This document shows, one piece after another, positions 7,847-13,570 of a DNA stretch of 64,000 bases; within the stretch, counting starts at the first letter, position 1; the number at the start of each line of letters is the position of its first letter. The translations under genes and the position numbers were made by a program. The notes beneath the pieces are model-generated. The model was not told the origin of the DNA and searched no databases. It saw only the letters and a list, made by a program, of their open reading frames with translations. Source of the stretch: Verrucomicrobium sp. (GTDB taxonomy: Bacteria; Verrucomicrobiota; Verrucomicrobiia; Methylacidiphilales; UBA1321); assembly GCA_017849585.1 (NCBI GenBank), contig JAFIGT010000039.1, forward strand, positions 1 to 64,000, written 5' to 3'.

Positions 7847-10800
7847 ATGAACCGGTCATTCTGGTCTCTGGTGGTCGCCCAGTGCCAAGTCTTTATCAAT
7901 GACAATGCGGCCAAACTGACGTTGATGGCGCTGGCCATCGCGGTGTTGCCGAAGGAACAGTCGGTGCCGCTCAAGAGTTTCTTGGCGGCGCTGGTGATCC
8001 TGCCGTTCGTGCTGTTGGCCCCAGTCGTGGGCTGGCTGGTGGATCGCTTCTCCAAGCGAGAGGTTCTGCTTTATTCTCAATGGTTGCAACTCGCTGTCAT
8101 GCTGTTGCTTCTGATTGGTCTTTCCGCACACAGCCTGGTTGCCGCAGTGTTCGCTTTCTTTCTTTTGGGCCTGCAATGCTCCATATTTGCCCCAGCCAAG
8201 CAGGGGATCATCAAGGAAATCGTTGGCACGCAAAAACTCAGCACGGCGGTCGGTTGGATTGAAGCGACCGCGATCAATAGTATCCTGATGGGCTCCCTCG
8301 CGGGCGGTCTGTTCTTTGACCTTTGCTTTCAGCGACTCGAAACCATGCGTCCATGGAATCCCGAGAATCCATGGGAGGCGGCGGTCTGGACGGTGTCATT
8401 GCTGTCCGTTTTGGCATCTTTCGGTATCTGGCTGTGTAGCCGAATAGAACGCACTCCGGCACACACGGACCATCCCTTCCGCAAGGAATTGCTTTGGGAG
8501 CATTTCGTGCAATTGCGCGAGGTGTGGCACGATCGCCCCATCCGCCTGTGCATTTTGGGCAATAGCTACTTTTACGCTCTGGCGGGGGCCTTGTTTCTGA
8601 CCTTGCTGGAAGTCGCCTCGGATCTCTCCCATGGCGGTCCTGGCACGGCGACGCGCACGGCGGTATTCATGGCCCTGCTGGGTGTAGGAACAATGGCCGG
8701 TCATTTTTTGGTCAGCCGGTTGACGCTGCATCATATTGAACTTGGCCTGATCCCGATTGGTTCGGCTGGCATGATAGCGAGTCTCACGGGGTTGTGCGTG
8801 GTTTCACCGCAGAGCCAGTGGTTTTTTCTACCGCTCTTTTTGCTTGGATTAAGCGGCGCGCTCTTTGTGGTGCCGCTGAGTGCGCATCTGCAGGACGTGG
8901 TGGCTCCGGAGAAGCGGGGCCGCATCATGACGGCCAACAATCTCGTCACAAATCTCACCGGCATCCTCACCGTCTCCCTCTATTATATTCTATCCGCGCA
9001 ATTTAATCTGGGTCCGGCGGATCAATTTCTTGCCTATGCCGTGCCGACGGGCATTCTCAGTCTCTACGTGATCGCCCTGCTTCCTGAAAACCTGCTTCGT
9101 TTCACCATTGGCATTCTCGCCCGAGTCATTTACCGAGTTCACGGGCGCGGCACGGAACGCATTCCGGAAAAAGGTGGAGTCCTGCTGGTGCCGAATCATA
9201 TCTCCTACGTCGATGCGATCATGCTGCAACTGGCCTGCCCGCGGCCGATCCGGTTTCTGGTCGATGAGGACATCTATCACGTCCGCGCATTGAACTGGGG
9301 CATGCGCCTGCTGCGCACCATTCCGATCAGCCCGAAGCGGGCGCGCAGTGCCATTGATCTTGCCGCTGCCGCGCTGAAAGATGGCGAAGTGGTTTGCATT
9401 TTCCCCGAGGGCGCGCTCACCCGCAGCGCCGCCTTGCACCGGATCAACAAGGGATACGAACTTATTGCCCGCAAGAGCGGCGTGCCGGTGCAACCGGTCT
9501 GGTTGGAAAATCTCTGGGGTTCGGTATTTTCTTATTGGGGCGGCAAATATTTTTGGAAATGGCCCCGCGCGTTGCCCTACCACGTCTGGGTCTATTTCGG
9601 CGCTGCGATCCCCGCGGAGGAATCCAAGAGCGACCGCGTTCGTCGCGAACTATATGATCTCGGTGAGGAGGCCTTTTCCGCCCGTCCGGAACTCGCGTCG
9701 CATGTCGGCTACGAAGTCATCAAGGGACTGCGGCATAAATTCTTCCGCCCGGTTGTCATTGACGCTTACAGCAACGGCCGCACTCTCACCGGTGGCAAAC
9801 TCCTCGGCATAGGCATCGTCATGGCGGACTGGATTCGCCAAAATATCCCCGAGAAGCGCGTGGGTATTATCCTGCCGCCAGGATTGGGCGCCTCTATCGT
9901 CAACCTGGCCTGTATTCTGGCCGACAAGACGGCGGTGAATCTCAACTTCACCGCGGGTCGCGCGGCGAACCTCGCGGCCATGAAATCGGGCAGCATCACC
10001 ACCGTGATCACGGCGCAAGGCGTCGTCGATAAGCTCAAGGATTTTCCCTGGCCCGAAAATCGCATCGACGTGGTGCCGGTCCTCAAGTCCTTTCCCAAAT
10101 CGCGTATACTCGGGTGGATCGCTGCGAGTCTCTTCCTCCCCTCCAGCTTCATTCGCCGCCTTGCCAAGGTGCCGCGTTATGGTGGTCACCAGGAGGCCGG
10201 ACTTCTTTTCACCAGCGGTAGTGTGGGTGATCCGAAGGGAGTTATTCTTTCTCATCGCAATGTACTGGCCAATACCGCGCAGATCGGCGCGATCCTCGGC
10301 AAGATCGAGCTCAAGAACATCCTCGGTTGCCTTCCCATCTTCCACAGTTTCGGTTGCACTGTCACCTTCTGGTGGCCGCTGCTGGGTGGTCCCGCCGTGG
10401 TGACTTACGTGAGCCCGCTCGAGACGCAAAAGCTCATCGAGGTCATCGATAAATACAAGATCGAGCTGTTCCTCAACACCCCCACTTTCCTGCGCTCCTA
10501 TTTACGCAAAGCCAAGCCCGAGCAGATGGATTCCATCAAACTCGTTGTGACTGGCGCGGAAAAGCTGCCCGTCGATTTTGCCGTCGAATTTGAGGACTAC
10601 TTCAAGCTCACTGTCTGCGAAGGGTATGGCATGACCGAGGCAACCCCAGTCGTAGCGACGAACTTGCCCAATGTGCCCATAGGCCGTAACGCGGAAATTG
10701 TCTGCCGGCGCATCGGCAGCGTGGGCCGTCCGCTCCCCGGCATCAGCGTGCGCATTCGCGATCCCGAGACAGACGAGGATCGCTCCATTTTCGAGAGCGG

Positions 10801-11308
10801 TATGCTCTGGCTCAAAGGGGCCAATATTTTTCAGGGCTACCTGAACGATCCCAAGCGTACCGACGAGGTCTTGCGGGATGGTTGGTATAAGACTGGGGAC
10901 ATCGGACGAATGGACGAGGACGGATTCCTCTTCATTGAGGGCCGTCTGACGCGCTTTTCCAAGATTGGAGGGGAAATGATTCCCCATGGCACCGTCGAGT
11001 CCAAGATTTCGGAAGTCATGGGCCTCACGGCGGCCGAAGGCGAAGGTCCAGCAGTCATCGTTGTTGGCGTACCCGATGCGGCGAAGGGCGAACAACTGGT
11101 TGCCCTTTCCACTCATGTGCTGGACCCCGCTGTCGTCCGCACCCGACTCATCGATGCCGGTTTGCCCACTCTTTGGATTCCCAAGCAGATTCGCCAGGTG
11201 GAGAAAATCCCCCTCATGGCCACCGGCAAGCTCGATATTCGCGCCTGCCAAAATCTCGCAGCTACTGGCCAGAACAACCATTCTGGGGAGCACCAGACCA
11301 TTCATTGA
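7847..11308 (+). CDS. aas: Fused lysophospholipid-transporter-like MFS, acyltransferase and acyl-ACP/CoA ligase
   Basis: This 1153-residue protein joins three enzymes that Escherichia coli encodes as lplT and aas. Residues about 1-415 are a 12-helix MFS transporter. Residues about 430-620 are a PlsC-type 1-acyl-glycerophosphate acyltransferase with the H-x4-D motif NHISYVD (His451, Asp456) and FPEGALTR. Residues about 640-1150 are an AMP-dependent acyl ligase with the P-loop-like LLFTSGSVGDPKGVILSH (from about 786) and GYGMTEATP (about 925). Together they would flip lysophospholipids inward, activate fatty acid and re-acylate, a membrane-repair pathway. The phosphatase-like gene follows after a short gap. 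Confidence 0.9.
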   Translation: MNRSFWSLVVAQCQVFINDNAAKLTLMALAIAVLPKEQSVPLKSFLAALVILPFVLLAPVVGWLVDRFSKREVLLYSQWLQLAVMLLLLIGLSAHSLVAAVFAFFLLGLQCSIFAPAKQGIIKEIVGTQKLSTAVGWIEATAINSILMGSLAGGLFFDLCFQRLETMRPWNPENPWEAAVWTVSLLSVLASFGIWLCSRIERTPAHTDHPFRKELLWEHFVQLREVWHDRPIRLCILGNSYFYALAGALFLTLLEVASDLSHGGPGTATRTAVFMALLGVGTMAGHFLVSRLTLHHIELGLIPIGSAGMIASLTGLCVVSPQSQWFFLPLFLLGLSGALFVVPLSAHLQDVVAPEKRGRIMTANNLVTNLTGILTVSLYYILSAQFNLGPADQFLAYAVPTGILSLYVIALLPENLLRFTIGILARVIYRVHGRGTERIPEKGGVLLVPNHISYVDAIMLQLACPRPIRFLVDEDIYHVRALNWGMRLLRTIPISPKRARSAIDLAAAALKDGEVVCIFPEGALTRSAALHRINKGYELIARKSGVPVQPVWLENLWGSVFSYWGGKYFWKWPRALPYHVWVYFGAAIPAEESKSDRVRRELYDLGEEAFSARPELASHVGYEVIKGLRHKFFRPVVIDAYSNGRTLTGGKLLGIGIVMADWIRQNIPEKRVGIILPPGLGASIVNLACILADKTAVNLNFTAGRAANLAAMKSGSITTVITAQGVVDKLKDFPWPENRIDVVPVLKSFPKSRILGWIAASLFLPSSFIRRLAKVPRYGGHQEAGLLFTSGSVGDPKGVILSHRNVLANTAQIGAILGKIELKNILGCLPIFHSFGCTVTFWWPLLGGPAVVTYVSPLETQKLIEVIDKYKIELFLNTPTFLRSYLRKAKPEQMDSIKLVVTGAEKLPVDFAVEFEDYFKLTVCEGYGMTEATPVVATNLPNVPIGRNAEIVCRRIGSVGRPLPGISVRIRDPETDEDRSIFESGMLWLKGANIFQGYLNDPKRTDEVLRDGWYKTGDIGRMDEDGFLFIEGRLTRFSKIGGEMIPHGTVESKISEVMGLTAAEGEGPAVIVVGVPDAAKGEQLVALSTHVLDPAVVRTRLIDAGLPTLWIPKQIRQVEKIPLMATGKLDIRACQNLAATGQNNHSGEHQTIH

Positions 11309-11380: not shown

Positions 11381-12769
11381 ATGAATTGGCGCGTTCGTTT
11401 TCTGGCATTGATGGTCCTCTTCTTCTTTGGGGCCTTGAGTTTCGTCTACTACAAATCCTTTGTGAAGAAGCGGGCACATGGCGTCATTTTGTTTGTCGCC
11501 AACGGACTCGACCTCACCACGCTTAACCTTGCTCGGCAACAATCCGAGGCGGCCCGCAGTCAATCCAAGATCGATATCTGGATGCAGCCTGCCCGACATC
11601 AGGCACCCACACATCATCAGATTCTCAATCTCGAGGGTTTGCCGCGCATCGCCATTCTCAATGTGCAGGGACTTGGGCAACCCGTCGCGGATGAGGCTGC
11701 TGCCAGCACCGCGCTCGCTTGCGGTCAACGCGTGAAGAATGGCCTCGTCGGGTGCAACTCGCTCGACCAGCAATTGCCCAGTTTGATCTATGCCGCCCAG
11801 AGCGCCAAACGCGCCACGGGCCTCGTCAGCACCAGTTCTCTCACTGATCCCACGCCGGTCGCCTTTTACACCTACATGCGCGACCCGCGCGAAAAATATC
11901 GCGCCGCTTCGGCGTTGGTTGACAGCGCCCGCATTGACGTTGTCCTCGGGGGAGGGGCGGATTATTTCACTCCAGCCACGGTTACCAATGAAATGGGACG
12001 CACGGATGGACGCGACTTGCTGCGCGATGCGGAACGGCAGGGATACACCATCACGCGCACGATTGATGACTTGCGCAAGGTGCCAGTCTGGCGCACGCGC
12101 CAGCTTTTTGGTCTCTTCTCCCCGCAATCTTTCTACTTCTCCGGGTCCACACGTCGCGATCCCCTGCAGCCTTCCCTCTCGGACATGACGCGTACCGCCA
12201 TTCAGTGTTTGCAGTACAATATTAACGGCTATTTTCTCGTGGTGGAGCATGGCCTCATCGCCAGCGCGGCCAAACAAAACATGACGGACCTTGCGGTGAA
12301 CGAAACCGTTGCACTGGATCAAGCCATTGAGACGGCCATTCACTATGCCGGTCCCGATGCGCTTATCATCGTGACCAATAACTACTCTCTTGGGGCGCTG
12401 GCCAATACCACGCCGCTACCGGAGGTGCCCGCGCTTGCCGGAGCCAATACGAGCCTGCGCAAATCGTGGACCAAGACTGCGGTCGCCAAGGCACCCGCGA
12501 CCGAGAATGCTCCCATGTGGCTCAACGGTCCCGGCGGTCCCAGGGTCACCGCAGCCCAGCAGGCCTGGTATAAAGAACGTCTGGCATCTGGTGCCTTCAG
12601 TACGAATTCGGCCAGCATCTTTGCGCCGGATGAAGCGGCCAACTTTGCCGTCGAAGCCGTTCCGACGGCGGCCCCCGCCTGGATGGCGTCGCGTGGATTT
12701 GGCTCGAATCAACTCACCGGTTTCTTCTCCAACGTGGATGTCTACTACATCCTGCGGGAGTTGTTTTAA
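11381..12769 (+). CDS. Alkaline-phosphatase-fold protein, membrane-anchored, probably catalytically dead
   Basis: The protein (about 462 residues from ATG 11381; a TTG at 11357 is an alternative start) has one N-terminal membrane helix (about 7-24) and then the alkaline phosphatase order of motifs. By hand alignment to E. coli PhoA, Asn41 replaces metal ligand Asp51, Glu105 replaces nucleophile Ser102 (VADEAAASTALACG against the usual TDSAASATA), Ala294 replaces Asp327, Lys298 replaces His331, and Asn334-Tyr335 replace Asp369-His370. Asp156 and Thr158 (magnesium site) and Glu289 are kept. Loss of nearly all zinc ligands and the nucleophile points to a pseudoenzyme facing the periplasm. It sits between the phospholipid-repair fusion and rsmA, all on one strand. 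Confidence 0.8.
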   Translation: MNWRVRFLALMVLFFFGALSFVYYKSFVKKRAHGVILFVANGLDLTTLNLARQQSEAARSQSKIDIWMQPARHQAPTHHQILNLEGLPRIAILNVQGLGQPVADEAAASTALACGQRVKNGLVGCNSLDQQLPSLIYAAQSAKRATGLVSTSSLTDPTPVAFYTYMRDPREKYRAASALVDSARIDVVLGGGADYFTPATVTNEMGRTDGRDLLRDAERQGYTITRTIDDLRKVPVWRTRQLFGLFSPQSFYFSGSTRRDPLQPSLSDMTRTAIQCLQYNINGYFLVVEHGLIASAAKQNMTDLAVNETVALDQAIETAIHYAGPDALIIVTNNYSLGALANTTPLPEVPALAGANTSLRKSWTKTAVAKAPATENAPMWLNGPGGPRVTAAQQAWYKERLASGAFSTNSASIFAPDEAANFAVEAVPTAAPAWMASRGFGSNQLTGFFSNVDVYYILRELF

Positions 12770-12790: not shown

Positions 12791-13570
12791 ATGACGCTGT
12801 CCGAGATCAAGCACCTCCTGGCCGACCGGGGATTGCGTCCGCTGAAACAATTCGGCCAGAATTTTCTCCACGATCAGAACATGTGCCGTTGGATCGTTGA
12901 CCAGATCCAACCTGTGGCTGGGGCGCGTTTGCTGGAGATTGGTCCCGGTCTCGGCGCCATCACCGAGGGAATTCTTCAGGCTGGCGTACCACTCGTCGCC
13001 GTGGAAAAAGACCGCGGTCTCGCAGCGATCCTGCGCGAACGCTTCGATCATCTTCCGAACTTCGATTTGCGCGAAGGCGATGCCCTCGATTTGCTTCCGG
13101 AACTTGGCGCGACGGAAAACTTCCCCGTTGTCTGTGGCAATCTGCCCTACAATGTTTCCACGCCGCTCATCATGACCATGCTCGATTGGCCGCAACCTCC
13201 GCGCCGCATGGTCTTCGCTTTGCAAAAGGAGCTTGGCCTGCGGCTCGCCACCGCGCCGCGCACGAAGGATTATAGCGCCTTGTCCGTGATCGTGCAGGCG
13301 GAGTATACGGTGGAGATCGTCAAGAAATTGCCCCACACCGTTTTTTATCCTGAGCCGGAAGTGGAATCAGCCGTGGTGATTTTGCAGGCTCGCGCCGAGC
13401 CGCTCGTGGTGGCGGAAAAACGTCCGGCTTTTCGCGCGCTTGTGAAAAAGGGATTTTCCCAGCGTCGCAAAAAACTCTCCAACCTCATTGGCGGCACCGA
13501 TTCCCGCCGTGCCGAAGAGCTGACGGTCGAAGAGTGGGCTGCTGTGACGTTGGGTGCGCAATCCGAATAA
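12791..13570 (+). CDS. rsmA: 16S rRNA adenine(1518/1519) N6-dimethyltransferase
   Basis: RsmA (KsgA) dimethylates two adjacent adenines in helix 45 of 16S rRNA using S-adenosylmethionine, late in small-subunit assembly. The 259-residue protein shows the family's N-terminal FGQNFLHDQN, the SAM-binding LEIGPGLGAITEGIL and the catalytic NLPYNVSTPL motif. Length is normal. It begins 21 bases after the phosphatase-like gene and may be co-transcribed with it. It faces the sulfate-binding protein gene head-on with only 14 bases between. Confidence 0.95.
   Translation: MTLSEIKHLLADRGLRPLKQFGQNFLHDQNMCRWIVDQIQPVAGARLLEIGPGLGAITEGILQAGVPLVAVEKDRGLAAILRERFDHLPNFDLREGDALDLLPELGATENFPVVCGNLPYNVSTPLIMTMLDWPQPPRRMVFALQKELGLRLATAPRTKDYSALSVIVQAEYTVEIVKKLPHTVFYPEPEVESAVVILQARAEPLVVAEKRPAFRALVKKGFSQRRKKLSNLIGGTDSRRAEELTVEEWAAVTLGAQSE

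Follow-up and report, generated by a model that had tools for sequence, protein, structure and literature searches.

Why would a protein keep the fold of an alkaline phosphatase (AP) after its catalytic centre has gone? One open reading frame in a 64,000-nt stretch of Verrucomicrobium sp. DNA (contig JAFIGT010000039.1, positions 1–64,000; hereafter the window) raises this question. The frame (11381–12769, + strand) starts with ATG, contains no internal stop and encodes a membrane-anchored protein of 462 residues, a call based on the ORF, Pfam, alignment and dN/dS; its GC3 of 0.68 is similar to that of the neighbouring genes. The initial annotation had described the product as a membrane-tethered AP-fold pseudoenzyme selected for a non-catalytic role. 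AP in its classical form is a textbook enzyme, hence the interest of a clade in which it appears dead. Our analysis favours, with a probability of roughly 0.6, a non-catalytic role in the envelope, most likely as a ligand sensor or as a scaffold. The pseudoenzyme pattern is also much wider than had been suspected, extending through the order Methylacidiphilales and the class to which it belongs.

The pseudo-AP is composed of a single N-terminal transmembrane helix and an AP domain. Transmembrane prediction places the helix at about residues 5–27 (11393–11461), and in the AF2 model it spans residues 3–29. The AP core, in which the zinc ligands and nucleophile are all exchanged, comprises residues 33–340 (11477–12400) as judged from Pfam, alignment and AF2. 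A Pro/Ala-rich insertion with pLDDT mostly below 50 (residues 341–390; 12401–12550) lies in the C-terminal half of the domain; its length varies and it is probably disordered. The C-terminal portion of the fold (residues 416–462; 12626–12766), recognized from AF2, alignment and structure match, carries a proline at the position of PhoA His412. The Pfam scan of the protein returned PF00245 alone (E = 7.1e-46; 157.4 bits versus a cut-off of 24.4; residues 35–336), with no sulfatase-family match and no second family. Against the NCBIfam PhoA equivalog (PRK10518/NF007810) it scores 98 bits, far below the 540-bit cut-off.

The predicted membrane tether holds throughout the family, with one N-terminal transmembrane helix in every pseudo-AP relative checked, including 28 from elsewhere in the class. 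Because it is homologous to exported APs, the AP domain is most likely periplasmic, outside the inner membrane. Most class relatives show a clear positive-inside charge bias, which in the window protein is weak or runs the other way.

With the 11 closest family members alone, AF2 produced a poor model (pLDDT 55.6). Enlarging the input with 30 more distant APs to an alignment of 41 rows gave a pLDDT of 80.7, a pTM of 0.77 and core values above 90, with a bias toward an AP-like model that comes from the active APs among those rows. All 50 PDB entries listed for the model are APs (Z 42–47, top 46.8; 311–353 residues; rmsd 1.9–3.4 Å), and a Foldseek search likewise led to the ordinary AP fold. The Pfam match, the AF2 model and the structural matches agree with the intact core anticipated in the initial annotation, and at the level of the model they confirm a complete AP fold following the transmembrane helix.

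Active-site residues were mapped by pairwise phmmer alignment to solved APs, by MAFFT alignment with E. coli PhoA (K-12) and in a 62-row family alignment, all of which agree. Asp51 of PhoA corresponds to Asn41, and the nucleophile Ser102 to Glu105 (codon 11693–11695). The zinc-site residues Asp327, His331, Asp369 and His370 align with Ala294, Lys298, Asn334 and Tyr335, respectively. Each of these replacements had been named correctly beforehand; to them we add His412, which is replaced by proline (about Pro428) in a loosely aligning region, and the substrate-binding Arg166, which is lost from the aligned column in the window protein and in all 41 pseudo-AP rows. None of the six residues of the two-zinc site (Asp51, Asp327, His331, Asp369, His370 and His412) is present. 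Asp101 and Ala103, flanking the nucleophile position, are retained. A protein lacking zinc ligands, nucleophile and Arg166 would be expected to have no phosphatase activity.

Taking 20 canonical APs and a conservation threshold of at least 90% gave 48 AP-invariant columns. The window protein keeps 0 of the 8 zinc, nucleophile and Arg columns versus 30 of the 38 other (non-catalytic) invariant columns (Fisher p = 5e-5); the losses are thus directed at the catalytic centre, and general divergence does not account for them. The active site is lost in the orthologues too, in keeping with the pseudoenzyme claim. Retention of the zinc, nucleophile and Arg residues is 3.8% in the order rows and 17.9% in the class rows, against 73–79% for the other invariant columns, and the 28 class relatives have just 1–3 of the eight residues left, mostly Asp51. 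All eight are present in 20 of 20 canonical rows.

Of the four magnesium-site residues, Asp153 (Asp156 in the window protein), Thr155 (Thr158) and Glu322 (Glu289) are present, with Asn at the Asp51 position. The initial annotation had drawn attention to this remnant, which is real in the window protein but not conserved in its relatives, where Asp153 is found in 3 of the 13 order rows. The retained residues could belong to a protein that is still an enzyme, performing one-metal Mg or metal-free chemistry through residues newly acquired in the former active-site cleft. The class rows give this reading some substance: with Asp or Glu at the Asp51 position in 28 of 28 and Asp at the Glu322 position in 24 of 28, part of the clade might still have a Mg site. 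There is also a precedent in YejM, long called inactive and later reported to be a Mg-dependent phosphatase (PMC7576196), an activity that is disputed. The order rows argue the other way, having Asn or Pro at the Asp51 position in 13 of 13, having lost Asp153 in 10 of 13 and retaining Ser102 in 1 of 13. Nor does the alignment contain a His or Cys, or a new acidic column, that is conserved across the pseudo-AP clade. We therefore regard an enzyme with other chemistry as unlikely. Some members of genus g3, outside the 13-row order alignment, still have Asp at the Asp51 position.

Intact metal ligands elsewhere in the protein, which would contradict the pseudoenzyme claim, were also looked for. 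The fold is that of an ordinary AP, and the Asp, Glu, His or Cys columns shared by the whole pseudo clade offer no set likely to form a second metal site, the metal-site geometry being assessed from sequence alone. What has taken the place of the zinc ligands is frequently basic: the His331 position is Lys or Arg in 10 of the 13 order rows and the Asp369 position in 19 of the 28 class rows, so that the position of the replacement differs between the two sub-clades. Such residues are a hint of anion binding.

The distribution of the family was examined at three levels. Within the order, a 15-row profile matched 44 of 62 Methylacidiphilales genomes, and about 40 carry the pseudo-AP. It is absent from 12 genomes of family f9, genera g13 and g15 (G024, G029, G032, G035, G038, G041, G043, G045, G047, G049, G051 and G053), which have no PF00245 protein above the cut-off at all; this absence is a lineage-specific loss. 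G019, of the same family, retains a divergent pseudo-AP. Named relatives come from Verrucomicrobia/Methylacidiphilales MAGs, including Tous-C9LFEB (95% identical), UBA1321, SRB-18 and SRB-291, several of which have been placed in candidate family UBA1321 (PMC8706344). Beyond the order, more than 30 genomes from ten families of the class (f17, f21, f22, f26, f31, f33, f36, f41, f44 and f55) encode full-length relatives. Among 241 genomes sampled from the phylum, the top score outside the class was 155 bits and covered the AP core only; full-length pseudo members nearly all score at least 196 bits. A search of viral contigs yielded no relative. We found no paper on this family in the open-licence literature searched.

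A maximum-likelihood tree of 62 rows groups all 41 pseudo rows in a single clade (support 100/99), apart from the active APs. Within it, the 13 order rows make up a sub-clade (100/98) whose sister is family f21. The closest active-site-intact relatives, L176 (genome G077) and L180 (G225), belong to the same class. With the pseudo rows united in a single clade and active APs of that class as its sister group, the simplest reading is that activity probably disappeared a single time, in an ancestral member of the class, and that the disabled protein was then inherited. A long-branched AP relative outside the pseudo clade, L195 (G099, 594–1916, − strand), has a half-lost site, with Ser102, Asp327, Asp369 and Arg166 present and His331, His370 and His412 changed; it is a possible second, independent loss.

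The pseudo-APs of the window genome and its nearest relative, G002, share 94.8% amino acid and 84.5% nucleotide identity, and 180 of their 215 differences fall at third positions. For this pair dN is 0.034 and dS 0.92, giving a dN/dS of 0.037 (NG86) or 0.029 (YN00); the corresponding values are 0.042 for rsmA and 0.015 for the neighbouring Aas gene. Purifying selection on the pseudo-AP is about as strict as on rsmA. A pseudogene or sequencing error is ruled out by dN/dS and by the presence of relatives in independent assemblies. The many substitutions at conserved positions might be read as signs of a gene in decay, with selection weak or absent, but the frame is open in all full-length pseudo-AP relatives, and the low dN/dS and the single class-wide clade in the tree refute this reading. 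The selection for a non-catalytic role proposed in the initial annotation is thus borne out by dN/dS, by the one ancient clade and by retention across the class. A protein disabled probably once, long ago, and still retained by related bacteria throughout the class very probably does something useful apart from catalysis.

APs are dimers, and a dead protomer might act as the regulatory subunit of a heterodimer with an active AP. A candidate partner exists in the window genome, which also encodes a canonical AP with all zinc ligands (L182; G000:C23:148045–149319). The pseudo-AP is, however, the sole PF00245 protein in most genomes of the order, including the 99% complete, single-contig G018. 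With no active AP in the majority of order genomes, an obligate or general partner role is unlikely, and we give the heterodimer very little weight as an explanation of the family. The same distribution bears on annotation: PF00245 matches would be read as phosphate scavenging, and in most Methylacidiphilales the sole match appears to be the dead protein.

The gene lies between two co-directional neighbours identified by profile match and locus comparison. Upstream, separated by 72 nt, is an LplT–PlsC–AMP-ligase (Aas) fusion (7847–11308, +), a known kind of three-domain fusion whose top NCBIfam model is PRK08633 (1052 bits versus a 1221-bit cut-off). A functional link to this phospholipid-repair fusion had been suggested, and it did not survive comparison: the fusion adjoins the pseudo-AP only in the window genome and the 95%-identical G002, and is not beside it in G001, of the same genus, or at any other locus checked. 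Downstream, after 21 nt, is rsmA/ksgA (12791–13570, +), encoding the 16S rRNA dimethyltransferase. Linkage to this gene, which the initial annotation had suggested surveying in orthologues, is conserved: rsmA is next downstream and co-directional in 33 of the 35 order genomes examined, spanning several families, mostly at 0–30 nt, with three larger gaps (268, 328 and 490 nt). Of the two exceptions, G019 has rsmA on the opposite strand and G015 has none within the stretch examined; in some f4 genomes the two frames abut. A promoter and terminator scan found 2 promoter-like sites versus 2.5 expected and nothing useful between the two genes. The pseudo-AP and rsmA are probably co-transcribed in Methylacidiphilales.

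So close an association could mean that the pseudo-AP is a membrane partner of RsmA, acting in ribosome maturation, envelope-coupled translation or a stress response. Yet rsmA is absent from the examined flanks of all 28 class relatives sampled, which argues for a basic role independent of it, and a periplasmic domain would be separated from RsmA. RsmA is cytosolic, and the linkage points to no obvious envelope function. We consider the partnership improbable.

Outside the order, the pseudo-AP has no widely common neighbour. A gpmI-like gene, called from its N-terminus, is divergent to it at six loci in three class families (L159, L161, L164, L165, L174 and L175); the gpmI product is itself an AP-superfamily enzyme. 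A hemB-like gene, called from the start of its sequence, is nearby at five loci outside the order. In genus g3 of family f1 (L114, 28–9919), the pseudo-AP lies 3' of genes that by sequence resemble bamA, skp/ompH and lpxD, which are outer-membrane and lipid A genes.

The favoured reading, a non-catalytic envelope sensor or scaffold, can be set out as a pathway. The ancestor would have been an exported AP, with its N-terminal helix turned into the present membrane anchor. Both zinc sites, the nucleophile and the substrate-binding Arg would have disappeared, probably a single time, in an ancestral member of the class, and purifying selection would since have preserved the AP fold in a domain without catalysis that most likely lies on the periplasmic side. 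A ligand or a partner protein may bind in the empty active-site cleft or on the surface of the domain, and through such binding the protein would act as an envelope sensor or scaffold. Our guess for the ligand is a phosphorylated envelope molecule, because Lys or Arg replaces zinc ligands in most lineages. The family offers a clear natural conversion of enzyme to pseudoenzyme, with apparently one loss, a fold then held under strong selection and a spread of about 19 bacterial families; active-site-intact sister enzymes in the same class are available for comparison.

The obvious reference is E. coli PhoA, the PF00245 AP. The pseudo-AP is homologous to it over the full length after the transmembrane helix, has the same fold (Z about 44–47) and retains Asp101, the GGG motif and the C-terminal segment. 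Unlike PhoA, it has no zinc ligands, Ser nucleophile or Arg166, and it carries an N-terminal membrane anchor and the Pro/Ala-rich insertion. The canonical class APs L176 and L180 are closer in the tree, but have 8 of 8 zinc, nucleophile and Arg residues. By descent and fold, the window protein is a member of PF00245; by mechanism, its sequence indicates that it is not an alkaline phosphatase.

A second comparison is with PbgA/YejM/LapC, an enterobacterial protein of the inner membrane whose periplasmic domain has a hydrolase fold; it regulates LPS synthesis via LapB, and its catalytic residues are described as improperly placed (PMC7773988). Both proteins are membrane-bound and carry a hydrolase-fold domain of the same superfamily, and the role of YejM is regulatory. 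They differ in that the YejM domain is of the arylsulfatase/LtaS type in a multi-span protein, whereas the pseudo-AP combines one transmembrane helix with PF00245. The membrane portion of YejM is a five-TM domain. The likeness is one of analogy, with no family-level homology, although the mode of working is perhaps similar. On a more specific and tentative proposal, the pseudo-APs would be an ancient, class-wide family of single-pass membrane proteins in Verrucomicrobiota in which zinc has given way to basic residues and which now sense or scaffold a phosphorylated envelope molecule, an independent counterpart, built on the classical AP, of the YejM-type regulator.
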